A DNA stretch of 64,000 bases. Source: Rhizodiscina lignyota. Lineage: Eukaryota > Ascomycota > Dothideomycetes > Aulographales > Rhizodiscinaceae. The notes beneath the pieces are model-generated. The model did no database searches, was not told where the DNA came from, and was given only the letters and a program-made list of their open reading frames with translations. A program made the translations under genes and the position numbers. Shown here piece by piece: positions 28,601 to 57,160 of this stretch (its first letter is position 1; each line of letters begins with the position of its first letter). The stretch spans positions 744,001 to 808,000 of the forward strand of contig ML978127.1 of NCBI GenBank assembly GCA_010015805.1. Reading direction: 5' to 3'.

Positions 28601-29812
28601 CGCAGCGGAGGCGGCCGTGACGACGCTCGAAAATGTGTTTGACAATTATAACAAACGAGAGCTTACAGGACAATGCTAACATAAGGTCATCAACACTACC
28701 GCGTCTGGAAAATAGAGTCGAACTGGCCAACGTCTGCCGTCAGATCGGAGGTCGGAGGCTACTTTTAGCTGCACTGGCAGGGGTGCTGCATCAGGGCTCG
28801 CACAGCGCAAGCAACCAGATGTCGCGACTATCATTCCTAATTTCTGGACCAACCATGACCAAGCGGGTTGCGCGTCCGGAGCGTCGTGAAGACACATCTC
28901 TGTTCCTTGGGCAGGATTTCAAAATCGACGGACTCTGTGCCTCCACCGCGAAATTGCGGCAGAGGCAGTCGTGCTGTCGATGTCGATATTGCTCTCTGCG
29001 GCCGTATTCGGACGGGCACAGCCGAGCGCCTCACCCGAACGAGCCACGTCCAACGGCTCTGCGAATTTCAAGCGCACAATGCCATTGTGAGGGTCAGAGG
29101 CCGCGAGAATAGATTAAATCTGCTCTGGCGCTCCACTCTCTTCATATAGCGACGACTCTCTCCAAGCATTCTCGCCGTCCGGCGGAGAGTCCAGCTCACG
29201 CAGGTGCTATAGTCAATATTTTACTTTGCCTCTTGTGGCTAAGCATGCTCGGAATAGGCCATCTGGCCCCACAGCCATGCATTGGCGCCTATTTATGGAA
29301 GCGTGGGCGGACATGGTGTGGAGGGCCGCCGATCCCTGATCCTGACGTCCAGCCGAAAAACACCAGTCGCGTACGCGATCTTCTCACGACACGAGAGCTC
29401 CAGAATAGCTGTCTCGTAACTTGGCGTATGCATCAAACGAGGATCACGATGCAGCTTAACGTATGACCAATTCGCCGTGCTATGCAGCCCTTCTCGCCCG
29501 CACCCTGGCTGCAACGCCGGTGCCATGTACATAATGCCACCGTGAGCCATGAGGGGGCGGTGTTCTCTAAAGATACCCTCACTGCCTCCGTGCGCTTCAT
29601 ATTATTCTCTCTTTCCGACTGGCCAAAGCCTCCGACCTGTTGGTTTTGCTGCCAGTAATATCTCATGTCTCTCCTCTGCTTCACTTCATGCAGCTTCGTC
29701 TTTTCTTCCACTTTCCTCATGCCGGCTAGTCACTGATCGTGACTCTGCCCTAACGTCCTGTTGCATATTTACATTCGTATGATCTAAGTTCTTGGTTCGT
29801 TTCATATACAAG
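25686..29812. other. 4.1 kb stretch with no recognised gene
   Basis: The longest gap in the window. Open frames exist on both strands (the largest is 27106-27798 on -), but they start at GTG or TTG, lack motifs and show no intron logic. A tRNA-like relic lies at about 26205-26300. The last kilobase should include the promoter of the UBA-domain gene, with a TTCCTCATGCC..CTTTCC-type pyrimidine-rich leader before 29813. I see no transposon genes or long terminal repeats. Confidence 0.45.
26205..26300 (+). other. tRNA-like relic (possible Met-CAT derived)
   Basis: AGCGCGGG, then CTCATAA (a Met-type anticodon loop), and later GGTTGGGAGTTCGAGCCCAA (a T-arm-like hairpin, 26266-26285) occur in tRNA order but are spread too far apart. 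GTAATGATG is present twice (26214-26222 and 26240-26248), once on each side of the anticodon-like loop. There is no clear D-arm or acceptor pairing, and the T-loop is one base too long. At best this is a decayed tRNA or tRNA-derived repeat. Confidence 0.2.
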
Positions 29813-32800
29813 ATGGCTTCCCAAGAAGTCGTACCTTTCTCAGCCTTCTCTCCACTGGACATCACCACCAGTGGAGAGACTCCCAACCCTCGACGAAGCC
29901 TTTCGATATTCAGCCGCCGAGGAGCTACACCCAAACCCCAGATCGATCGCCTCCCGAGCATAGTATCGAAGAGGACCTCTATCAGACACTCAATTGCCGA
30001 ACGACGACCCAGCAAGATGTTTAAAACTCGGAGGTCGGAGTCGAAGAGCGGCTCGCAGGGCACAATCTTGAGGGCGGTACCTGAGGCTTGCTCAGACTGC
30101 ACCGGCTTTGGGGCTCGCTCGATGAGCTCTCTAGAGCTTGCAATGGCAACATCGCCGAACGAAGAGATCCTGAGCGCTATTGGCATGCCTTCGCCCGACG
30201 TCACCACGCCTACATCTGCCACTTCCCCATATCTCACCGAACGACCACAACTACAACAAAGCTCACAAGGAACAACAAAGCGTTCCAGAAGGCATTCTGA
30301 GACCAAATCGAATGTCATTGGTATGTGGATGAATGGCCGGACCAAGTGGGTCTCGGATGCGACCACGTCTGCCACATCCAAAGAGAGCTTAGGTGAGACT
30401 GAGGCTATTTCAAGCATTCAAAATTCCGAGACACACGATCCAAAGTCCCGGAGGCCAAGAATACAAGTCATTATTCCAAATGACCGGCTAACTGGACCCT
30501 TCCCTTCCATACCTTTCTTCCAACCTGTAGCCTCATACTCTTCAGTCGACGCCAAAGCCTCAGCAGGATTCGTTTCAACACAGGAGATGCATGTCCCAGC
30601 TGGAGCCATTGGCCGGACCACGACTATTCACATGTCCACATCGGCTCTCGAGCCACACAACCCACAGCCTCAACGACCTTTTGCAAACCTTCCCGTTCAG
30701 CTCAAGGGCCCAGAGCTTGACCTCCCTTCAGTTGCAGCACACCTTACTAGACCTTCACTATCTAATTCCACATCATCAGATGGATCCAACTCGAATACGG
30801 AGGAAGAGGAGGATGACCGGTCCAACTACAGCGCCAGGTCGTCCATGACCAGTGTCAGCAGCGACATGGCTGCCAACCCCGAGCTCCTGAAGCCTAACAC
30901 CCTTCACAAGAGGACTGGTAGCCAGGCCTTCTCGATCACGTCACCAGCTGCAGCAGGTGTCTACGATGACGCCTCCCGAGCTGGTGAAGACTCGCCTTCG
31001 GTTGACAGCATATTCCCAGTAGAGCTCCCAGGCTCACCAGTACCAAATGACAAACTCTCTAGAGCATCATCGCAAGCTTTACCACGTTCCTGGAGCCGGA
31101 AGCGGATGTCCTCTCGACGTGGTGTGAAGCTTTTGACTGCACCGAGGGAAGAACCAGCCACCAAGCCGAACGGCGAGCCACGAACTCCAAGCCCGACACT
31201 CAGTGACGCGGAGAAAGACTTGGAAACCACACTTACCTCAATCGAGGAGAGGGCCTCTCCGAAGCAGGAATGCTCTGAGAACGAGACATCTCCATTGCCC
31301 GAGGTTGTACCAGAGCTTCCTCCCCTTGAAGCCAAACCTCCGACTCCTCCACCGAAATCTGCTCGTCGACAATCGATCCGTCCGCAAGCACTTCGTCCTT
31401 CTGTACAGTCGAGGCAGGCTGAGGAGCTTCTCCGAGCCGACCGTGAGCTAACGGAGCAGGCGAAACTGCGCAAGAATAAGCCAAGTCTGAAAAACTATGG
31501 CCTGCGCAGAATCAATTCGCTGTCCATGCCCGACATTGCCGAAATGGTAAGGTCAGAAACGCCTGACCTGGCGAGGAAGCAACAAGAAATGGCTGAGCGA
31601 CAGATTTCTGCACAACAAGCCGAGGAAGTCATTCTCCATATCATGGAGGCTTTGCAGTCTTTGGACGATCTGGTTAACACGGCTGCTCTGAACAAGGGCT
31701 TCTACCGCGTCTTCAAGCGCCACGAAATCGAACTTCTCAGAGGTGTCCTGAAGAACTCTTCCGCGCCAGCGTGGGAGTACATGGAGACCTGCAGACCCAC
31801 TGAAGACCGCGTTGATGAGGACGGCAGCCCAATCAGCGCCATCCCATCCGACTACACTCCTTCCTCCTATCTCAAATTCTACATTGAATCACACGCCACT
31901 CTTATTTCCTTGAAGGCACTCATTCTGGCAAAATGCCAATCTTTCCTTCGTGCCACTACGGTAATCGCACTGGCCAGCCCCGATCCAGCCATCTCTACTC
32001 GCGTTGACTCGGCGCTTTGGCGCATCTGGACCTTCTGCAGGATCTTCGGCTCAAACCGGAGCCGCGAGGACGACATCGTTGGCCAAATGGATTGGCTTCG
32101 CGGCGGGCAACTCGCACACCAGCAAACATGTACATCAACCATTGTAAGCAGCGACAGCTTTTACCTCAGCAGTGTTCTCTTGAATGCACCCGAGCACTTT
32201 GCGCGGGGAAATGGCAAGAAGGGGCTCGGCGCGGAGGACCTGTATGATATGACCGAACTCTGGAACTGCTTCAACTGGCTTGTGCAAGGTCTTGAGGGGA
32301 GGACGGAGCAGGCAAGGCAATTCGGTGTGTTTGACAACACTGAGGTGCGCGGTGGTGATATTGATGGAGAAGAGGCTATGCTTGGTAAGCTTTCCGATTT
32401 CTTCGAATGGTCACTCAATCATGCGCGGAAATACTTTTGATGATTTCTGTGTATTTCTTCTCTTCATTTCATCTCAAACTTTGTTATTTCCTGCTTTTCT
32501 TTTTAAGTCCTATTTCGAAGAAGAGCACACTTCTCGTTGAAATGATGGAACATTTGCTGATTTGCTATTGCAGAGGAATTCCAATCATACGTCCTCACGC
32601 TTGGCCTTTACCCACTTCTCACCGTCGCCTCCGCACTTCTGCCATCCGATGACAACGCATCCATCGAAGACATTGCCGCAGATCCCACCGCACTTGCCCT
32701 TGCGAAGGAGCATGGCTGGAGTTCCTGGACCCCTCCACCAGCCGGTGGCTCTCGCAGCACTTTCCTTAAGGAGCCTCTCGCACGCTTGTACGAAGAGCGC

Positions 32801-41333: not shown

Positions 41334-43226
41334 TCATACAGCTCCAGGACAAATCTTCAAGCACTGCAACAACTCTTCCACTCTCGCAATTGCATACCCC
41401 ATGCCCGCATCCTCAAGCCCGATCCCAATGACAACTTCATCATCGAGGTAACCCATCTGCATTTCTTCCAGTCCATGCCTCTCCGTTCTCTTTCCCTTCG
41501 CCTTATTCTTCTTGTTCTTATTCCTTCTCCTTGTCTCCCATTTCGCTTCCTCTCTTCCAAACGTATAGCTCACGCTAACCGTATACGTGAAATACACACC
41601 AAGATCCTTTCCCCTCTCCCCTCTCTTGATCGCATCCAACTGCTCCTCGTCACCATCCCAGTTTTCCTCCGCTGAAAAGTCACTTGCACTCTCATTAGCG
41701 AAGAGCAGCGGATGGCGAGTTATAGCAAGCATGTGAAATGGTGGAGTTGCGGACCAGAGCACGAAGTACCGTTCGTACCGCATGGGTAAGCCGAATCTGT
41801 TACCCAATTTGCGCTGTATCACGGCAAGAAAGACGGTGTTGGACTTGGCAGGCTTGCAACTTTCATCGCTCCGCCGACAGAGGATGAGCTTCAGCGAGTT
41901 CGACGTCTGATGCCAGCTCCCCACATTGTCTTTGTCGTAGTGCATTGATGGTAGGTCTTGTACATCTTTTGGTACTGTCTCCACGCAACTTGGCTCCACT
42001 GGACTTGTCAGATTCTCGGAAGTCAGCCCATTGCCGAGCAGTTTGGCGAAAGTGCGCTTGCGTGGCTTGATTTCGTACTGGATGTAGCTCGCCTGGCCTG
42101 GCCCGGCCGAGAAGTACATCCAGTTCTTCTCAATAGGGCCACGACTGTGTGGCGGATTGCGTGTCAGTTCTGTGAGCGTAGGGTAGGACATCAGTGGTGG
42201 TGCCCGTAGCGGGTCATCGTTGCTATTGGTGGCATTTGATATCAAAACATGAAGAGGGTTGTAGAGCGTGCGAAGGTCGACTAGCCAAAGCCCGAAGCAT
42301 GCATAGCGAGACCTGATGGTAAAAAGCCATGTCAGTTTGATATAGAATGGAATGAAGCCTTGATAAAGCTTTACATACTGTGAGTTCGCAATCATCAATG
42401 GCTCTCCCTTGCCGCTCCAGAAAATCCTAGGGTCGTGGAAGCCAGGTATGTCCGGATACGCCTCGAACTCATCAATGCACTTCTCTGCCGGTGTTGGTGG
42501 TACGTTCAGTAGTATTGGCTTCGTCGCACACCGCATCCCTCCTCCAAGTGATACCAGCAATCTCAAGTCATCTGCAGTACATGGCTGCTCCCATTTCTTT
42601 CTCCCATTAGGCGATCCAGTATAGCAAATGTTCGCTTCACAGAGAACGTTCTCTTGGTGCAAGCCGGAGGTGATGATTCGCGATACGATGAGATATTGGT
42701 TTGGCGACCAGTCCGGAAGTGGTATGATCGTGGGATTGAAGAAGACTCGAGTGTCGTCCAGGTTGTCAGGCGGTGTCATCGAGATGTTGAAAATCGGTGA
42801 TGCCGTCAGTCGACTGTGGCCAGTGAATCTGTTCGGCTTGATTGGACATTGGCTGAGCGGCTCGAGATATCTCTCGGTACTTGTGCTGTTGTTGCTGTTC
42901 GAAGGTTGGGGGGAGTGATGCGTGTAGTGGTACGACAGGGCAGGCGACTGATGGTTCTTCCGCGGGCGCTGGAAGGGAAAGACATGCTGATTGAGATCTG
43001 AGAACGGTATGCGGAGAAACAGTTGAAGTTGGAGCGACCGCTCGAAGATGTGAGACACATGAGGGACGTAGCTGTGAGAAAGGGCGCGATACAAGACCAC
43101 GAGAGCAAGACACAGAAGAGAAGGGACGAAAAAGCGGCGAAGAGACGGAGCGTACAACATGGTGCGTGTCTCGCAGAAAGCGCAAACAGTAAGGAACGAA
43201 GTGGAAGATGACACGAACATTGACAT
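41334..43226 (-). CDS. Type II membrane protein, glycosyltransferase-like layout
   Basis: A predicted Golgi-type protein of unknown activity. The frame is open for 630 residues, but a 66-base intron (42378-42313, GTATGT donor, CATCAG acceptor, CTGAC branch site) is likely and would give 608 residues without changing frame; the joined exons read ANSQ/SRYACFG. A short cytosolic tail precedes one hydrophobic anchor (VPSLLCLALVVLYRAL, about residues 33-48). A low-complexity stem rich in Ser, Pro, His and Asn follows, then a globular part with HDPRIFWSGKGEPLMI and IEKNWMYFSAGP. Such DPRIFW..GEP motifs recall five-bladed-propeller or beta-mannosyltransferase-like fungal proteins, a weak resemblance. 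The C terminus has a Lys/Arg-rich insert and ends in LLQCLKICPGAV. Confidence 0.7.
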   Translation of the reverse strand: MSMFVSSSTSFLTVCAFCETRTMLYAPSLRRFFVPSLLCLALVVLYRALSHSYVPHVSHIFERSLQLQLFLRIPFSDLNQHVFPFQRPRKNHQSPALSYHYTHHSPQPSNSNNSTSTERYLEPLSQCPIKPNRFTGHSRLTASPIFNISMTPPDNLDDTRVFFNPTIIPLPDWSPNQYLIVSRIITSGLHQENVLCEANICYTGSPNGRKKWEQPCTADDLRLLVSLGGGMRCATKPILLNVPPTPAEKCIDEFEAYPDIPGFHDPRIFWSGKGEPLMIANSQYVKLYQGFIPFYIKLTWLFTIRSRYACFGLWLVDLRTLYNPLHVLISNATNSNDDPLRAPPLMSYPTLTELTRNPPHSRGPIEKNWMYFSAGPGQASYIQYEIKPRKRTFAKLLGNGLTSENLTSPVEPSCVETVPKDVQDLPSMHYDKDNVGSWHQTSNSLKLILCRRSDESCKPAKSNTVFLAVIQRKLGNRFGLPMRYERYFVLWSATPPFHMLAITRHPLLFANESASDFSAEENWDGDEEQLDAIKRGERGKDLGVYFTYTVSVSYTFGREEAKWETRRRNKNKKNKAKGKRTERHGLEEMQMGYLDDEVVIGIGLEDAGMGYAIARVEELLQCLKICPGAV

Positions 43227-43539
43227 GAATGTGCATATGGAGAAGGCAAGGCATACTCCTGCATTAGCAAGTGCTACCTTACGCGCCTTCCTCTAGGCTT
43301 CAACAGCCCTGGCGCATCAATTCTGATGACGAATATCTTTAAACAGCCTTGTGAATCCCCTGGGATTTATGTACACTGCTTAGAGGACTCGAAATCCGCG
43401 TGGTATCGCAGCAAGGCCCGAAAATGCTGCACCTTTTCCGCCTTTACAATTCCCGGTAACGGTATCATAACGAATCGAAAAGCGCCTTAACAATGCTAAT
43501 GCAACCATCAAACCATTTCTCTGTCATGAGAGGTTTACG
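43227..43539. other. Short intergenic region
   Basis: 313 bases between the start of the type II membrane protein gene and the end of the Sgf11-type gene, both on -. It must hold the promoter of the former and the 3' untranslated region of the latter. I see no gene. Confidence 0.5.
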
Positions 43540-44949
43540 TCAACTCGCTGTGCTTGAAGCCTCATCGCTGACTTTTTGCTTCTTCTTTGGTGTGTTCTCC
43601 GCATCATCATCCTTATCACTTTCCCTTTCCCGCTTCCCATTCTCCGGCTTCACTTTCGACCCGTTTTGTCCTCCAGGTTTCGGTGGCCTCTTCGCGGGTG
43701 TGCCCTCTTTCGTAGTCGGGACACTCGTTTGCGACGGCTTCATCTTCAATACGATCCTCTCCTTGTCCACACTCTTATCTTTATCCTTATCTTTATTCTT
43801 GTCCTTGTCCTTCTCTAGCTTCTCCTGGCTCTGACTGTTAGCCAATGTCTCGCTCGAACTTTGTGCTGCCAGTCTCTCTCGATCCGCCTTCTTGACATAT
43901 TGCCTCTTCTTTACCTTCTTGAGGGGGATATCCTCCAGCTCGTCTCCATCGTCGTCGTCACGGTCTCTCTTCTGTCCTTTCGCCTCGCCCTGATTGCCAG
44001 GACCGGGAGTGCCGGGTCGACTACCCATAGGTGTGCTGCCCATACTTCCGTTCTGCCCACTCAGCTTTGCCATCGCATTTCGACTACTCTGCCTTCCGCT
44101 AATGCCCAGGCACTTCTCCAAGTGTTGCGCGAATCTCGTAATCAGCAGACTCCTCTTGCACCTTGGACACGTATGCCACGGGATGTAGTTCGCGCCTTTA
44201 CTCTGCGGTTGTAGCTTATTGATGCCGTTCTGCACCTGCACGCTTTCGGAGTCTTGTGTGCCACCCTGCGGATCGCTGTTCTGGCTTGCGGGCGTAGAGT
44301 CCTTCTCTGCCCGTGCTTGCTGCTTGATGAGCTCGCGTTCCTTCTTTGTCTTCGCTTGGTCGGTCGGAAACGGCATGCCATACACATCATGGCCGGATTT
44401 CGACACGAATGGGTGGCGTGTGCAGTATTGGGCGTTGAGATCGTCGGGCATCTGAGCGCCGACACCGGAGAGCGGGTATAGGAGACGAGGAAGACGACAT
44501 TGTGGACAGTATATTTGAGGCGTGCTGCGGAGAGGGTTGCCCTTCAGTGTTATGAGGCCATCATTGTACGTCGCACCCGGTGTTTCGACTTTGCCAATCT
44601 TCGCAGTTGTAGGGGTGGGCAAGGAGTTGGAGGGTTTGGTCGGTGTTTCGGAGGATGGGTGAGGAGATTGGAGTTGTGATGACGATGCTGCCATCGAGAC
44701 CTGAGTGGCAGCGGACTGCATTCGTAGGAGCTTCTCGGAGCGATGGGTTTGGAGGACGACGTCGTGGATGATGTTGTACATGGTATCCTCGAAGACAGAA
44801 GTTACCTACAGTTGATTCATGTTAGCTTTGTCAAATTCGTGCCATCATGGCAAGAGTAGACGTACTACTGATGAAAATGTACTTTGTGATATCTGGAGCT
44901 TGGAATTTTCTGACGGCCCCGAGCCGTCGGCTGCGTCTTCTTGCGACAT
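43540..44949 (-). CDS. SGF11: SAGA-associated factor 11-type zinc-finger protein
   Basis: A predicted 449-residue nuclear protein of the Sgf11 family, part of the SAGA histone H2B deubiquitinase module. Two exons, 44949-44866 and 44805-43540, join in phase 0 (GTACGT donor). The signature finger CPRCKRSLLITRFAQHLEKC (Cys241, Cys244, His256, Cys260) followed by LGISGR.SSRNA is the Sgf11 zinc finger that contacts nucleosomal DNA. The helix after the first junction (FEDTMYNIIHDVVLQTHRSE) fits the N-terminal helix that inserts into the Usp/Ubp8 partner. An extra Cys/His set (CPQC at 128-131, CTRH at 156-159) may bind a second zinc. The C-terminal 150 residues are Lys/Asp/Glu-rich with basic nuclear-signal-like stretches. 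It is far longer than yeast Sgf11 (about 99 residues). Confidence 0.85.
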
Positions 44950-46936: not shown

Positions 46937-47773
46937 TTACATCTTTTTCGCCAATCCCCCGAGTATGTAGCAGTCGTCAGGATCTCCTTCGACTTTGTCA
47001 CCATCATCGACCCTCCACGCGCCAACGTTAGCTAGTCCTGGCTCTTCCATCTCCCATCCATCACGTTTGAAGATCTTATTAACGATTTCCTGTTCGGTCC
47101 TGCCGTAGGTATTCGTGGAGGCCGCACGGTACTGTTCTGCGACCTGCTCGCCCTTGTCTTCGTCGTATCTGAACTTGCCGTCTTCCGGCGTGTAAAACTG
47201 CGAGGCTGCAAAGTAGCTTCTTGAACAGGCCGCGTTTCGGATTGGATCTATGATAACCGGAAGCTGCGCGTCCGAGAAGAAATGTAAAAGAGATATCATG
47301 AGTATCCCCACAGCTTGCGAGAAATCAATAAGCTGCCGGACATCGGGGTGATCAAGTATCTCTTGCGGATGCAAACAGCTCTCAATGACAACAGCTGAAT
47401 TCTCATCCTTCGCCAAGATCTCTGACCCCAAGGTCTTCACAATCTCTTCATGGTCGACGTACACTACACGCGCATTCGCTTCCCCGAGGACCTCCTGTGC
47501 GATTTCATGCGTGTTGCCATTGGTGGGCAGGCCAGACCCAATGTCAAGGAATTGTCTGACACCTTGGCGTGCCATGAATCGAACAACTCGCCGCAAGAAC
47601 CCACGGTTCATTCGAGCCATTAATGAAATTGTGGGAACGGCATCGAGAGCTTTCTGTGCCGCTGCACGATCAACGGTGCTGTTGTACTGACCGCCCAGGT
47701 AATAATCGTACATGCACGGGACATGTGGGCGGCTTGTGTCGATGATGGTGGAGAGGTATGTCTCGTCAATCAT
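46937..47773 (-). CDS. SAM-dependent methyltransferase, Methyltransf_19 (DUF574) family
   Basis: An intronless 278-residue methyltransferase of the S-adenosyl methyltransferase family (PF04672, formerly DUF574), which is mainly known from Streptomyces and other actinobacteria. The diagnostic pieces are in order: TSRPHVPCMYDYYLGGQYN and DRAAAQKAL near the N terminus, then MNRGFLRRVVRFMA, GVRQFLDIGSGLPTNGNTHE (SAM-binding loop, about residues 71-90), ARVVYVDHEEIV (acidic ribose contact), and LDF-like LIDFSQAVGILMISLLHF. It then ends in family-like GWEMEEPGLANVGAWR. Length is normal for the family. The substrate is unknown; bacterial members are proposed to act in specialised metabolism. No biosynthetic genes lie beside it here. 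Lack of introns and the family's distribution suggest transfer from a bacterium. Confidence 0.9.
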   Translation of the reverse strand: MIDETYLSTIIDTSRPHVPCMYDYYLGGQYNSTVDRAAAQKALDAVPTISLMARMNRGFLRRVVRFMARQGVRQFLDIGSGLPTNGNTHEIAQEVLGEANARVVYVDHEEIVKTLGSEILAKDENSAVVIESCLHPQEILDHPDVRQLIDFSQAVGILMISLLHFFSDAQLPVIIDPIRNAACSRSYFAASQFYTPEDGKFRYDEDKGEQVAEQYRAASTNTYGRTEQEIVNKIFKRDGWEMEEPGLANVGAWRVDDGDKVEGDPDDCYILGGLAKKM

Positions 47774-49333
47774 GTTTGTGCATCAAGCGCGCCGTGGGCC
47801 GTCGCTTGTCGAAGTAGACGAAGGTTTGTCCCTAGCCAATCGACGCCTTTCAAATAGGGTCCTAACGATTGTCACTTTCCTTGTGTCCGTGTGGGGATCT
47901 GTTCAATCTGATGAAGAAATATAAAGATTAGCAACTGGCAATCCACCAGGTGGTTACGTTCTGGCCCTGATGAAACAGTTGAGCGGTATATTTTGAGATG
48001 CATATATGACTTGAAACGACGATGAAATGCCAAAAACTCCGATTGTCAACGAGCAGGATTTCCGGTTTTGTGGTTTTGTCACACCTCAGATGCGAACTTG
48101 ACCACAATCCCCACTTTGGGGTTACGTCGACATGTCGTACGATACAGGTGATGAAGCCGATCCCCTCTGCGCCTTAAATCTTCAACGACGATCTCATCAT
48201 TGCGTGATTGAGAAGTCGAAGCTGAGACTCGCGAGGAACAACATCGCTTCGCCTGAAGCAACGAACACAATGAAATGTGTAGCATCTTTCACCGTACTCT
48301 AATTTGCAGATCACGCGTCTTGCAAGGAACTCAGCAAAGCGAAACAAAGCGAGTAGCGAGTTGCTGGTATGTATCTTCAGATTCGGGCCTATCGTACCGG
48401 CATCACGAGTCAGCTGTCTCGGTGTTACAATTCCATGAGTAGGTTGCCTGGACCGTTGGAACCACTCCGTATGCATCGCTTCGTTCAGAACAGGCACGGC
48501 CACGGGCAGCTGTGCATATATTCGCCCCTCCTCGAAGTGTTGGCCTTCGTGGCGTCCGGGGGACACTCCGATGCTTCTGTTCTGTGCGGATTAAAGCGGA
48601 GAAGATGGCAGGCGACCCCTCTTGTCCTCTTGTGAGTATGAGGCGGTGATGGTTTAGTTCCCGCCAGCAGGGCGAACCGGCTTGATCGGCAAGTGCTCCG
48701 ACTGAAGAATTGGAACAAAGTGACGGGGACGGGACCAGCATGTGGCACATGAGAGATACGTGGATAGATAGGGAACTCAGGGACTAGTGTGCTGGAGTAC
48801 GCTCGGCAGATTACCTGAAGAAACGACGAGATACTAGATAGACACTGGGAAAAAAGTGCGAAGTGACTAAGCGCTTGCCACGATACCAGAGCAAGCACGG
48901 CGGCCTTGTGATGATGCTGGCCTCGTGGGAATAAAGGGACGATGCTCGGGGTAGTCGACCTGTGGCGGGGAGGGCGTTGTCCACATTGCTCACGCATGGC
49001 AGCTCCGCGCGCTCTAGAAGGCCCCGGGGCTGCGGTGCCACCAGCAGGGCCACTTGGGCATGAGAGCGTGTGCGAATAACGGCTGCACCGCTGAGTTTGC
49101 TCGCGTATCTATTCGTTATCGCGCGCCGTATCATGCAGCAGCAGCGGATGGGCGTGAGATGAGCCTGGTTAGTCCCCACGTAATTCCGCTCCCCTCCCAC
49201 CTTCACAGGCCAGTCCACACCCAACTCCAGATTGTTCGTCAGTCAGAACCTTCCCCACTGCCTGCTTGCGAATCTGGGTCGCTGCACTTGAGGTCGAGTC
49301 GAGTATGGGACACGCGCCTTGAGCGACGCTCTT
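47774..49333. other. Divergent intergenic region, no confident gene
   Basis: 1.56 kb between the divergent starts of the methyltransferase and the Zn2Cys6 gene. A 170-codon frame (48485-48997, -) lacks any motif and is low-complexity. The region should carry both promoters and a long 5' leader of the regulator gene. Confidence 0.45.
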
Positions 49334-52009
49334 ATGGCAGAAACGATCACCATTCCCTCGCCTTCTGTGTTTCTCGATCCTCGCCCGTCCCCGCTCGAGC
49401 AAGCTGCTGCAAAAAGCGGCGCTGCCACCGCCAATGGCGGCCCCAAGACCAACAACGCGAAGAGCGATGGCGCGGCGAAGAAGCGAAATGCCGTTGCGAA
49501 ACCGTCGCAATCGGCCAAAGATGAGACCACGAAGGTGAACGCTGACGGAGTGACCAAGAGGAAACAATCAAAGAGCCGTAACGGTACGCCGTGATTCCAT
49601 TATGACGAATTGGAATGAGTGCACTTTGCTGATAACAAAATCTCCGCAGGCTGTGTTACTTGCAAAGCGAAAAGACTCAAATGCGATGAGTCGAAACCTA
49701 CCTGCCAACAGTGCACGAGAAGAAGTGTGACGTGTGGAGGATACAAGAAGGACTTCAAGTGGCGACCATTCGAGGAAACTGCATACACCAGCAAGGCACC
49801 ACCAGGAAAAGTGAAGAAGCGTAAGCGTCTCAAGAACTGATTGTCATTTGTTGCGCATTCACTAACACCCCTTCACAGCCTCTCCACCTCCACCTACGTC
49901 GACGACCGCGCCGATAAAGCAGGATAGCCCGACCGCATCGAAAGATGTTACCCTTCCTCCCACAGATATGCCCATGGACACACTCTCCTCTACCCCTACC
50001 GCCTTCGCACACCCTAACTTTCCTTCCCCAAGCCAATTGCTTGATCTCGATCCCCCATATGATGATGCGCCGACATCTGCGGACGTACAAGAACCGTTTG
50101 ATCCTGGACCTGTTGATCCGGGCCCGATGCGGAACATAGATCCTATGCTCGAGGATAGCATACCGATTGTCCCCGAGAATACTGCATCGTCGAGCTTATC
50201 GTCAGGCCAATCACCTCGTCTTATCGACCTTTTGCTCCCAGGAACAGACCTGAACCTGCCAAATCCTGAGTATGTGGATTATAGGGCCCGCTTTCCCGAC
50301 GCAATGTACCAGCCTGTTATGCATGAAATCACAGAGGCGATGGTCGAAGAGGAGGGAGACATTGAGGAGGTTATTCGCCATCATCCATCGTTCTCGGATG
50401 GGTTAAATCCAGAGCATGAGGCGTGGGTGATGCGACTCCCTACACCACCAATTTCTTCTTCGTCCTCGAGCTCTTCGGAAGGTACGATGATCAATCCATC
50501 CACGAATCCGTGGACATATATGGTTCGAGAACCCTTGTTCTCGCCCAGCTCCCCGGAAATGTTGACGCTACGTTTCGACCGCCAAACTTGTGGCGTTCTA
50601 TCTGTCAAAGATGGCCCGACAGAGAACCCGTGGCGCACTCTCATTTGGCCGCTCGCACGCGACAATTCCGCTCTCTACCACGCTATCGCGAGCATGACTT
50701 CTTTCCATTATGCTCGTGAAGAGCCAGGCTTGAGAGTTCAGGGTATTGAGCATATGCGCACCAGCATCAAAGCCCTTGCACAGGGCATTGGAAACATGCG
50801 CCTTGATACTGCAATTGCCACGACGCTGGCCCTTGCTTTCTCTGAGAGTTGGGACCAGCATATTTCTACTGGTATCAACCACATCAAAGGCGCCAAGATT
50901 CTCGTGAATCAAGCGCTCACGAAGCACCGCCGCTCTCCTTATGGTGGAGAGGAACTTTCGCGCTTCAAGTTCCTTGCGAATACGTGGATATACATGGACG
51001 TCATCGCACGCCTGACATCGGTAGACGAGGATGAGAGCAACGACTTTGAGTTCGTCTTCTCCGAGCTCTCAGATCCGTTTGGGGCTGAAACCCAGCTGGA
51101 CCCTTTGATGGGATGTGCTGGCAGCTTGTTTCCGATCATTGGTCGTGTCACGAATCTCGTGCGCAAGGTTCGACGGACGCTATCCAATTCGCCGGCCATC
51201 ATCAGCCAGGCGCTTGATCTGAAGACACAACTTGAAAGCTGGATACCTCCGTCGTTCTTCGATCCTCCAGAAGATCCGTGCTCGGCAGTTGAGCACTCTC
51301 TTCAAACGGCCGAGGCGTACCGCTGGGCTACGCTCTTGTATCTTCATCAAGCTGTTCCGGAAATTCCGTCAGCCAGCTCTGCAGAGCTTGCGAAGAAGGT
51401 CATGATATATCTCGCGACCGTTCCGCTTGGCTCACGTGCCATTATCGTGCAGATCTACCCACTTATTGCGGCTGGATGCGAGGCCTTTGATGAAGAGGAC
51501 AGGCAATGGGTGCGGGATCGCTGGATGTGGATGGCTCGAACGATGAAACTTGGTATCATTGATCGCTGTGCGGAGGTCGTGAAAGAGGTCTGGGATCGAC
51601 GCGATTCGTATGAGCCACGCTCGCCGAAGAGGCGTAATGCTTCGACTGTGCCACCAGGCTCACTCAAGCGTGGCTTCAGCCTTGACGAAGACGATGTGGG
51701 CGATCCGTTTCAATGGGATGTTGATGATATTTTCGGTGGCGGCAACAGTCGCAATGGTGGAGGGAAGCGTCGAGCTACCACTGGAGTTTATGACGTCCCT
51801 CACGCCTTGAGACTCTCGGCGTCTGGACCAAGGATCAGGAAGAGCTCCACTGATGCGGATTCGCCTGGCGGTATCGACCCCGAGTTTACTGTGAAGGGTA
51901 GCCTGCATTGGATCGGGGTCATGAAGGACTGGAAGTGGGAAGGTACGGTCACTTCACTCTACTCGAATCGAAGCATGTCACTGACATTTAAGCAGTTTTG
52001 CTAGGTTGA
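49334..52009 (+). CDS. Zn2Cys6 transcription factor
   Basis: A fungal Gal4-type regulator of about 832-848 residues. Exons: 49334-49583, 49650-49820, then 49879 onward. The finger CVTCKAKRLKCDESKPTCQQ plus CTRRSVTC (Cys85-Cys112) has the C-x2-C-x6-C-x6-C-x2-C-x6-C pattern; the first splice junction falls just before it and the second after a basic stretch (GKVKK/PSPPPP). A Lys-rich N terminus precedes the finger. The C-terminal 500 residues, from LIWPLARDNSALYHAIASM on, match the Fungal_trans_2 type of middle-homology region. The end is ambiguous: read-through stops at 52004, while removing a 53-base intron (51943-51995) ends the protein DWKWEVLLG at 52009. I prefer the spliced form because donor, branch site and acceptor are all good. 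Targets unknown. Confidence 0.88.
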
Positions 52010-53864: not shown

Positions 53865-55027
53865 ATCGGAGCATGGTTCGGAGTCGTCGATGTTGGATGG
53901 CTCAAGGAGCTGAGAAGAGAGGAGATTACCAGACACTCCAGACCCACGATGGTCGGAAACGGATGGAGAAAGACGGAACACATCTGGGGAAGGGTAAAGT
54001 CAAGCTGATTATGCTGACATGACAAGAAAATAAAACTATTGAATCGAAGGCTATCCTGGGCCTCATTATATTTCAAATTTCCCTATGTGCCAAGATCGCC
54101 CTTGAGATAAGCGCAAGCGCACGCCCTTCTGCTGATATTGTTCCTTACCCTTGAAAGACGGCTCCGACATGAATGTTTTGTAAGACTTCAGTGCACATTT
54201 TGAAGTGCTGAGTGATTAAGGCTAACGTAACCTATGCCATTTTCGAACAGCGTCGCTTGAGGCAAATAATTGAATTAACAGGAACCTAACTCTACCAGGC
54301 TCTTATGCTATTCAAGACACAATAAGTATAGCTGCACTTTCGGCTACCTACCTAAGAGAATTGGAGATAATTATATAACATGTAAGCTGGATTGTTAAAG
54401 CTATCCTTTGCTGATCGTGGCCGCAGTTTGAGTTTCTGTCGAGGACGAGGAGTTAAGGTCCGATTGTATGATTTCGCGAAGTGGAACGAGATGCTCCGGC
54501 CAATCGTACTGTGTTATATCTACGCTTTCATACCCGACAGAAGCCCGCTCAATTCCACCTTCAACATCAAATGAGTTGCATTGCTGTCCATCACTGCGTT
54601 CATATACCCGCAGACGTTCTGACATTAGAGTCGCTGCCGGGAAATCCGTAGACATTGTGCATACTCGCACATCGACTCCCGAAGAAGAGACAAGCGCATG
54701 GTATATTTTTATTGACTTTACCTTCATGGAGGAATTTAAATGGGCTGGCGAATGGAAATAGCTCACGAGCACGAGCCGTCCAATGGGATGGATTCGGCAA
54801 ACTCCGCTAGAAATGGCCGCTAAGATGAAAGAGCACTAGCGCCAACATGAGGGGAATCCTCAGCTTCACCCATCATCGCGCCGAAACGTTTAATTTCTTC
54901 AACTTCAAACGACTCTGCGCCTCGCTCTACCCTCTCGTACTCACCGCGGCCTGTAACCTCCAATTTCGACATGTAGACGTAACGCGCACGACTGCCTCCA
55001 GGCCCTGTATACCTTGCACCAACCGCA
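53865..55027. other. Intergenic stretch, one weak small frame
   Basis: 1.16 kb between the cupin gene and the Ser/Pro-rich gene, both on +. The middle (about 54.1-54.4 kb) is AT-rich. Apart from the weak frame at 54401-54727 on -, nothing looks coding. Confidence 0.45.
54401..54727 (-). CDS. Possible 108-residue small protein, weak
   Basis: An ATG-started frame (MKVKSIKIYHALVSSSG onward) with moderately protein-like composition, including MSERLRVYERSDGQQ and DITQYDWPEHLVPL. No family is recognised, no introns are obvious, and no neighbour supports it. It may be a real orphan gene, an exon remnant or chance. Kept only because its composition differs from the surrounding spurious frames. Confidence 0.22.
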   Translation of the reverse strand: MKVKSIKIYHALVSSSGVDVRVCTMSTDFPAATLMSERLRVYERSDGQQCNSFDVEGGIERASVGYESVDITQYDWPEHLVPLREIIQSDLNSSSSTETQTAATISKG

Positions 55028-57160
55028 ATGAGCCTCTTTCAACCTCACCCTACCACAGCGGCTACCGCGTCGAATCGTACCACTTCCATCGAAGCCATGC
55101 TGGCGAGCCAGTTGACGGAGCAATTGCGTAGCCAGAGCAGCCAGAGCGACCATGGAGGGGCGAATTCCCAAGAGGAGTCAGGCAAAGGCTCCGTATACGC
55201 CGTCCGGACACCTTCCAAGTCGCCGTCCAAAGCGCGCTCTCTATCCGACTCCACGCCAAGATTGTCACCGTCTCCGAACATCAAAGAATCGATCAGAAAA
55301 TCGAAAGATGATCATACAATAGAGACGAATCCAAAAACTCCAAGGAGGCCGGACTTCCTTGCGAGAGGGCTGTCTCTGCAAATGCCATCCAAGCAAGGCT
55401 CGCCGAGCACGGGTCTGCTTCCCTCTCGCGGCCCATTATCTCCAAAGCTGGATTCACGTAACATCTACAGCTCTCCCGCATCTGTGTTGCCCCGCCATTC
55501 GCGAGGTCTAGACTTCTCACGAGCGTGCACGAACCTTCATCACTCCACCGTCGCCGAACAATCCTCTCCCGACTCTTCACCGACCATAACACAGAAAGCT
55601 ATCGCTATCCCTCCACGATCCTCACTTTCGCATAGTTCTATGATCCTGGATTCACCACAAATGAATAGCGGGGCTTGGACACATGCAGGAAACAAGGACA
55701 AGTCAATGGCCTCGGGCTCAGTCAGCAGCATTAACATGCTCGATTCGTCATCAAGTGACTCTGATGGAGGCGACCCAATGGAAGGCGACGACAATGACGA
55801 CCTCATGATTTCAACACCTCAAGCGTATAAGTTGAATGACGCGTCGGCTCCAACACCTTTTGCCGCAGCACCAACGACGCGTCTTTGGCCCGGCCCCGGG
55901 ATTGCCGCGCCATCAAGCTTCATGAGCTTCCAGAGAGCGCGATTGAGGCATCGGCGAAGCAGACACAGTTCAAGTAGCGCGAGCGGCCACAGCTCATTGG
56001 CGAGCCCTATTCCGCAGTCTCCGCCAAATGGACGCGCCGATGGCAATTCATATTTTGCAAGGGAAATAACCCGGAAAGCCGCTTCGCGGAGAGAGTCTCT
56101 GAGCCTTGGTACAAGCGATCTACATATCTCTTCGGGCAATGATAGCGGCGACGAAGCGGGGCAGTCTGGTGTATCAACACCTGGTGTCGTACAACGGCCG
56201 GTGACCAGGCGGACGAACATGCTGGTAAATATCGTGGATGGCAAATTGGAGAACACATACACTGATGTATTGCAGCCCAAGTCGCGTGCGTTTGGCCGCA
56301 TTCGCGCTGAACTCATTGAAGAGAGTTCTCCAGTCGACACAGAAGTACGCCGCGAAGCCCAAGTCGTCCGACAGGTCCGTGAGAGCGATCTCAATATTGA
56401 CCAGCCTCAACAAGGCGGTGAAAGTTCTCCGATTCTGCCAGCCGCTCCGGATGGGCTAGACGACATACCAGAAGGGAACCCCCTAGGGACCAATGTGCCA
56501 GGCGCTCCAAAGGGTTTATTCGGAGCATTCTCTCGTCAAGCGTTCAAGAATTCGATTTCTGGAGGAAAGGACTTTTGGAACAACTTCGACAATCAGATTC
56601 GCACACCGCCACCGCCATTTTTCCCTCGAGCAGGTTCTTCAACTGTGAGCGATGATATTAACATGGATTCACCAACGACTTCGTCCTCTACACCTTCGAC
56701 GATGCTCTTCTCGACTAGTCTTCCACAGCCGCAGGAACAAGCGAAAGAAAATAACGTGGGATTATCTTTGTCCCGAGCTTCGACTCCTCAACCTCCTGCT
56801 CCGCCGCCGTCTGCTGCTGAAGGTATACGTAAGAACAACAAACGTCGCCGCGATGACGACTTGGACGGAATGTCTATCAAACGCCGTGCCGTCTCACCAG
56901 GCATGAGCGTACAGAATAGCCCTATACTCTCACAATCTCCCGGAAACCGAGAGACCAACCTCTGGGGCCAGCCACATTCGCAGAGCCAAGCAAAAGCTTC
57001 ACGAGAGGGTTCAGTGACTGGACATGCAGCAGGACAAAGGAGTGATAGCACTGGTAGCCAAGCAAGTGTGGTCCCGGCTATTGGCCCGTTGGGGAAAAGG
57101 ATTGGAATGCAAGGAATGACAGACACTAATGATGGGCTTATGAAAATGAGTATTGAGTAG
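55028..57160 (+). CDS. Ser/Pro-rich nuclear-type protein of unknown function
   Basis: A single-exon protein of 710 residues. The first 240 residues are rich in Ser, Pro, Lys and Arg with many SP/TP sites (TPSKSPSKARSLSDS), followed by an acidic patch (SSSSDSDGGDPMEGDDNDD). A short conserved-looking core spans about residues 395-455: RPVTRRTNMLVNIVDGKLEN, then PKSRAFGRIRAELIEESSP and EVRREAQVVRQVRESD. The C terminus has basic KNNKRRRDDDLDG, a likely nuclear signal, and more low complexity. No enzyme domain is visible. The composition suggests a phosphorylated nuclear or chromatin-associated protein, but this is inference and I recognise no named family. Confidence 0.75.
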   Translation: MSLFQPHPTTAATASNRTTSIEAMLASQLTEQLRSQSSQSDHGGANSQEESGKGSVYAVRTPSKSPSKARSLSDSTPRLSPSPNIKESIRKSKDDHTIETNPKTPRRPDFLARGLSLQMPSKQGSPSTGLLPSRGPLSPKLDSRNIYSSPASVLPRHSRGLDFSRACTNLHHSTVAEQSSPDSSPTITQKAIAIPPRSSLSHSSMILDSPQMNSGAWTHAGNKDKSMASGSVSSINMLDSSSSDSDGGDPMEGDDNDDLMISTPQAYKLNDASAPTPFAAAPTTRLWPGPGIAAPSSFMSFQRARLRHRRSRHSSSSASGHSSLASPIPQSPPNGRADGNSYFAREITRKAASRRESLSLGTSDLHISSGNDSGDEAGQSGVSTPGVVQRPVTRRTNMLVNIVDGKLENTYTDVLQPKSRAFGRIRAELIEESSPVDTEVRREAQVVRQVRESDLNIDQPQQGGESSPILPAAPDGLDDIPEGNPLGTNVPGAPKGLFGAFSRQAFKNSISGGKDFWNNFDNQIRTPPPPFFPRAGSSTVSDDINMDSPTTSSSTPSTMLFSTSLPQPQEQAKENNVGLSLSRASTPQPPAPPPSAAEGIRKNNKRRRDDDLDGMSIKRRAVSPGMSVQNSPILSQSPGNRETNLWGQPHSQSQAKASREGSVTGHAAGQRSDSTGSQASVVPAIGPLGKRIGMQGMTDTNDGLMKMSIE

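Follow-up and report, generated by a model that had tools for sequence, protein, structure and literature searches.

Two solved bacterial proteins provide the structural reference for the methyltransferase family PF04672 (Methyltransf_19, formerly DUF574): Tfu_2867 of Thermobifida fusca (2qe6) and SAV_2177 of Streptomyces avermitilis (3giw and 3go4). The excerpted text of PMC2954221 lists S-adenosylmethionine (SAM) as a ligand for 2qe6 and S-adenosylhomocysteine for 3go4, and 3giw holds an unidentified ligand resembling phenylalanine. No substrate or function is given in the literature found on the family, despite its large expansion in some filamentous actinobacteria. The gene described here is an intact, full-length PF04672 gene in a chromosomal stretch of 64,000 nucleotides (the 'window') from the ascomycete Rhizodiscina lignyota; the protein extends a known family to a host where it was not expected. 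The favoured reading, held with a probability of about 0.62, takes the gene for a genuine part of the fungal genome, whose forerunner most likely arrived long ago from a filamentous actinobacterium through horizontal transfer, and its product for what is now a divergent small-molecule methyltransferase.

A first-pass annotation of the window had described an intronless reading frame matching PF04672 along its length, and both points are borne out. The open reading frame (ORF) runs on the reverse strand from an ATG through 278 codons to a TAA, and its product can be aligned end to end with bacterial relatives, which leaves no space for an intron. In a Pfam scan that reported matches to E 0.1, PF04672 alone appeared (E 1.1e-62; 212.5 bits, where the curated Pfam cut-off is 26), with residues 8-277 covering 263 of the 268 profile positions (5-267); a scan against NCBIfam returned zero families. 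The stretches QFLDIGSGLPT (motif I) and DYYLGG, both singled out in that annotation, are present (Table 1). The D-x-G-x-G-x-P pattern of motif I is intact (D77, G79, G81 and P83), as is the acid that ends the second strand (D107), and the SAM-binding role of the motif in the fungal protein is presumably the one known for the family. A chance ORF is unlikely, since the longest ATG-initiated ORF in 500 shuffles of the 5060-base inter-ORF stretch never exceeded 231 residues (median 113), and the family match settles the question.

The AlphaFold model of the fungal protein (predicted local distance difference test score 93) agrees in fold with the solved structures 2qe6 and 3giw, to which the sequence is matched with E values of 3.8e-41 and 1.4e-34, respectively. 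Relative to these structures the fungal protein carries a few extra residues, the longest run being 201-205; it differs from the bacterial solved members in being single copy and in the replacement of six residues (Arg20, Asp109, Pro110, Asp132, Pro154 and Gly185). The leucine carboxyl methyltransferases (PPM1, LCMT-1) and the mycobacterial ML2640/Rv0731c proteins are also among the closest known systems, with 8-16% identity to the fungal protein.

The window corresponds to positions 744001-808000 of contig C7 in a 33.4-Mb, 29-contig fungal assembly, in which a genome-wide search found one PF04672 match. Ordinary fungal genes had been reported on either side, and this holds: an Sgf11 zinc finger ORF and a Fungal_trans_2 ORF flank the methyltransferase, separated from it by gaps of 2132 and 2195 bases. 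Bacterial contamination or a chimeric assembly, the first of which the first-pass annotation had named among the findings that would refute its reading, and which would account for a protein of bacterial type, has a negligible likelihood and is effectively ruled out by composition, flanks and position in the contig. The G+C content at third codon positions (GC3) of the gene is 0.58, against 0.49-0.74 in 13 other window ORFs and a median of 0.91 (range 0.62-0.97) in 206 bacterial relatives; both sides carry fungal ORFs; the contig is 808 kb long or more, and the gene is situated 790 kb from its beginning; and the best bacterial identity is 49%. GC3 was preferred to a codon-usage log-ratio, which separated the frames poorly (antisense 0.043 versus 0.022). 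This native-looking composition implies either an old arrival or strong adjustment. Scans for bacterial promoters and terminators at the gene gave counts not above those in shuffles, and the repeats near it are short, imperfect ones only. A search for 5.8S rRNA gave no match in the assembly, whose ribosomal repeats are seemingly missing or were dropped by the first filter of the search.

Relatives of the fungal protein were sought in plasmid, phage, IMG/VR and genome collections, with phyla other than Actinomycetota represented by 14 control genomes. Among 72,556 plasmid records, 79 match at E 1e-5, and the 76 with a genus printed are all actinobacterial; at E 0.01 there are 84 matching records, and the 81 with a genus printed, like the 60 rows listed, are again all actinobacterial. 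At least 585 pattern stretches of the genome collection encode relatives (585 of the 591 listed), and the 80 of these that were kept bear actinobacterial titles without exception. All 14 control genomes lack a family member. Within the actinobacteria the distribution is uneven: 14 of 198 genomes drawn across the phylum match the fungal protein and 184 do not, whereas matches occur in 345 of 345 genomes from the order of Actinomadura nitritigenes, in 343 of 343 drawn from the larger order of a Catenulispora metagenome-assembled genome, in 34 of 35 from the order of Frankia, and in 190 of 397 drawn from the larger order of Micromonospora. The best match, L132, comes from a genome of an actinobacterial order; it scores 223 bits at 49% identity, and a further alignment gives 45% across 257 columns.

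Many paralogues may share one actinobacterial genome, as in G202, which has 27 matches to the fungal protein, and in G003, where the Pfam model matches 21 times. Fungi and filamentous actinobacteria live in common habitats, and beyond this nothing speaks for a transfer in the reverse direction, from fungi to actinobacteria, which is very improbable in view of the many paralogues per actinobacterial genome (27 against a single fungal copy) and of the deep bacterial diversity in the trees. Phage were considered as carriers and rejected, as none of 50,697 phage records matches at E 0.01. Ten viral-contig loci from IMG/VR (L082-L091), unlike the phage records, encode relatives at 27-38% identity; the contigs that carry them may represent the edges of prophages, or host DNA wrongly classed as viral.

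Before trees were built, 7 of 213 hits were dropped for short length or for identity, leaving 206 bacterial relatives. A quick 134-row tree placed the fungus within a group of 92 rows, the other 91 of which are bacterial relatives, with a support of 99 in the Shimodaira-Hasegawa-like approximate likelihood ratio test (SH-aLRT). The same tree offered L005 as sister to the fungal sequence (SH-aLRT 88), a placement given up when wider sampling moved L005 inside a larger bacterial subfamily. More careful trees used 38 and 53 of the 206 relatives (39 and 54 rows), each with one fungal sequence, no outgroup and no other bacterial phyla. In the 39-row tree the fungus is joined to one actinobacterial subfamily with a support of 92/92; in the 54-row tree it is joined, at 88/54, to an actinobacterial subfamily of 25 rows (L132, L133, L162, L005 and others). 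Both in tree position and in identity, which reaches 49%, this subfamily is the one closest to the fungus; the end branch leading to the fungus measures 1.2-1.4 changes per site, and the midpoint root falls among bacteria in each tree. Descent from actinobacteria is the best reading of distribution and tree taken together, the tree alone being no proof, and the donor most likely came from or near the 25-row subfamily. We infer the fact of a transfer, its direction and its age from these sequence comparisons.

The first-pass annotation had also proposed that the gene is kept open, and the pattern of conservation agrees. At columns on which at least 90% of the 25-row subfamily agrees, the fungus keeps 45 of 56 that are also conserved family-wide, 27 of 44 that are intermediate and 8 of 29 that are variable (Fisher p 2e-4 for the family-conserved class against the rest). 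The fungal changes are thus pooled at columns where the family tolerates change, which indicates purifying selection; neutral drift would not sort them in this way. At the same time, and this is a point that the earlier annotation missed, the fungal protein departs from the family at 6 of the 29 columns that are near-invariant (at least 95% conserved), whereas the 206 bacterial relatives, which are those nearest to the fungal protein, do so at 0.5 on average and 3 at most. The six changes are R20C, D109E, P110E, D132S, P154A and G185R. The changed position 132 would, by its place just after a strand, be an adenine-contacting site, and the retained Asp107 would, likewise by position, be the ribose-binding acid. 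L132, although it lies inside the bacterial subfamily in the tree, likewise deviates at two of these positions, with Leu in place of Arg20 and Glu in place of Asp109.

These losses raise the question of whether the gene is a decaying or catalytically dead remnant that is shedding the invariant residues of its family, an idea compatible with any origin. The excess of broken near-invariant columns is what such a remnant would display; it is nonetheless improbable, given 278 intact codons, the retention of key residues (motif I, Asn87, His89, Asp107, His164, Arg225 and Trp253), a retention graded by conservation class, and a fold predicted at high confidence. By a test stricter than Pfam's definition of the family, and of our own making, the fungal protein lacks Arg20 and Asp132 of the usual PF04672 pocket; the changes, these two among them, suggest that the pocket for the cofactor or the substrate has shifted in the fungal lineage. 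A bolder version, which is conceivable but doubtful, is that the branch was remodelled after transfer into a new enzyme, with the loss of Arg20 and Asp132 bringing a different grip on the cofactor, a new substrate or possibly a role other than methyl transfer, and with purifying selection still acting on the fold.

Table 1. Features of the methyltransferase gene and its surroundings (positions are those of the window).
Feature	Position	Strand	Remarks
Methyltransferase gene	46937..47773	-	PF04672 (SAV2177-type), class I methyltransferase fold, 278 aa, intact, single exon
DYYLGG	47690..47707	-	Residues 23-28; N-terminal family signature
Motif I, QFLDIGSGLPT	47522..47554	-	Residues 74-84; SAM-binding glycine-rich loop by position, after the first strand
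Codon 20	47714..47716	-	Cys; Arg in 203/206 bacterial relatives
Codon 107	47453..47455	-	Asp, retained; end of strand E102-107; invariant in 206/206 relatives
Codon 132	47378..47380	-	Ser; Asp in 204/206 bacterial relatives; just after strand E126-130
Upstream ORF	47766..47783	-	Five codons, MHKHD-stop; overlaps the methyltransferase start codon
Flanking fungal ORF	43543..44805	-	Sgf11 zinc finger, PF08209 (E 9.6e-13), SAGA component-like
Flanking fungal ORF	49866..52001	+	Fungal_trans_2 regulator, PF11951 (E 1.2e-53), first ATG 49968
Long ORF	29783..32437	+	885 codons stop to stop; no Pfam match at E 0.01
Long ORF	41337..43292	-	652 codons stop to stop; no Pfam match at E 0.01
Long ORF	54983..57157	+	725 codons stop to stop; no Pfam match at E 0.01

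Several observations weigh against a functional methyltransferase gained from an actinobacterium. An approximately unbiased (AU) test gives p 0.4 for the fungus on the opposite side of the midpoint split, so that this other attachment is not rejected; the fungal end branch is long (1.16-1.38 changes per site); the residue make-up of the fungal protein is atypical; and one fungal row without an outgroup cannot show nesting within the actinobacteria. The six changed near-invariant residues leave activity not assured. According to a 2010 survey, PF04672 occurs in six prokaryotic groups at the phylum level (PMC2955703), from which it follows that the gene could have had a donor outside the actinobacteria and that an exclusively actinobacterial family is not established. 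In addition, excerpts of a transcriptome study of the basidiomycete Inonotus obliquus, which give neither an accession nor a substrate, name 'S-adenosyl methyltransferase' among the abundant Pfam families (PMC6770048). This wording is Pfam's description of PF04672, and the spread of the family among fungi may therefore exceed what one late transfer would lead one to expect. The survey and the transcriptome together lower the confidence placed in an actinobacterial transfer and raise that in vertical inheritance.

Ancient vertical inheritance, in which an early ancestor already possessed the family, fungi and some bacteria retained it, and the fungal members would form an old eukaryotic clade, would accommodate both of these sources, as well as an unrooted tree that could be rooted on its single, long-branched fungal row and the AU result. 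It is considered unlikely, however, because the family is absent from every control genome and from most genomes in the draw across the actinobacterial phylum, because the midpoint root lies among bacteria, and because the fungus is nearer to one bacterial subfamily than to the others. A horizontal transfer with a bacterial donor outside Actinomycetota, or with an earlier fungus as recipient and later descent or passing on of the gene, would likewise suit the six-group count, the long branch and the AU test; with every relative whose organism is printed in the plasmid and genome collections being actinobacterial, and the nearest subfamily too, this is quite unlikely. Horizontal acquisition from an actinobacterium, as first proposed, is probably right, although trees with one fungal sequence cannot show the predicted nesting of several inside the actinobacteria. 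The accompanying description of the family as mainly one of Streptomyces and its relatives fits the printed relatives but calls for a caveat in view of the six-group survey count.

A further claim, that the substrate in fungi is undescribed, agrees with literature searches in which no paper naming a fungal PF04672 member by accession was found, but has to be qualified by the Inonotus obliquus transcriptome, which names the family description. PF04672 proteins from other ascomycetes are entered in public family databases, and Rhizodiscina lignyota is probably not the sole fungal case. PMC6089919 concerns Lae1 and unspecified methyltransferases.

By analogy with the ligands of 2qe6 and 3go4, the fungal protein would bind SAM and transfer its methyl group. 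In the Rossmann domain, the GSGLPT loop and Asp107 would hold SAM, and the helical N-terminus with its DYYLGG segment would close over a small substrate; the methyl group might then pass to an oxygen or nitrogen of a small aromatic or amino-acid-like molecule, with 2qe6, 3go4 and 3giw serving as the guide. The five-codon upstream ORF, which overlaps the main ATG (context CAAACATG), could tune translation of the methyltransferase or could be there by chance.

Gene neighbourhoods were surveyed on both the fungal and the bacterial side. The window has 60 other stop-to-stop ORFs of 150 codons or more, and no biosynthetic cluster was seen among the 20 neighbouring ones that were scanned; farther neighbours include a class II tRNA synthetase, the signal recognition particle receptor alpha subunit, YIF1, a sugar transporter and a PrpD-type protein. 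ORFs around 12 of the 25 subfamily genes were predicted with a simple and rough GC3 rule, which at L215 misjudged the strand of the subfamily gene; the rule yielded 124 ORFs of 55 codons or more. No recurrent partner family was found among the 63 of these that were scanned, a set of ORFs from about 105 codons upwards, above the size of a small partner such as a DUF397 protein. The commonest neighbour family was MFS_1 (5 of 63), short-chain dehydrogenases were found in 4 of 63, and only 14 of 90 families occurred at least twice. The substrate is thus not readable from bacterial context. At the one annotated Streptomyces clavuligerus locus inspected, the gene, which falls outside the 25-row subfamily, has a DUF397 and helix-turn-helix neighbourhood.

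Gene transfer from bacteria to fungi has reportedly been described in earlier work (for example PMC2459174), and the Rhizodiscina lignyota gene adds a credible case to a kind of event already known. Its altered set of otherwise nearly fixed residues is the most interesting loose end. For the family as a whole, a single-copy fungal member would offer a simpler place to find a substrate than does a bacterium with many paralogues.
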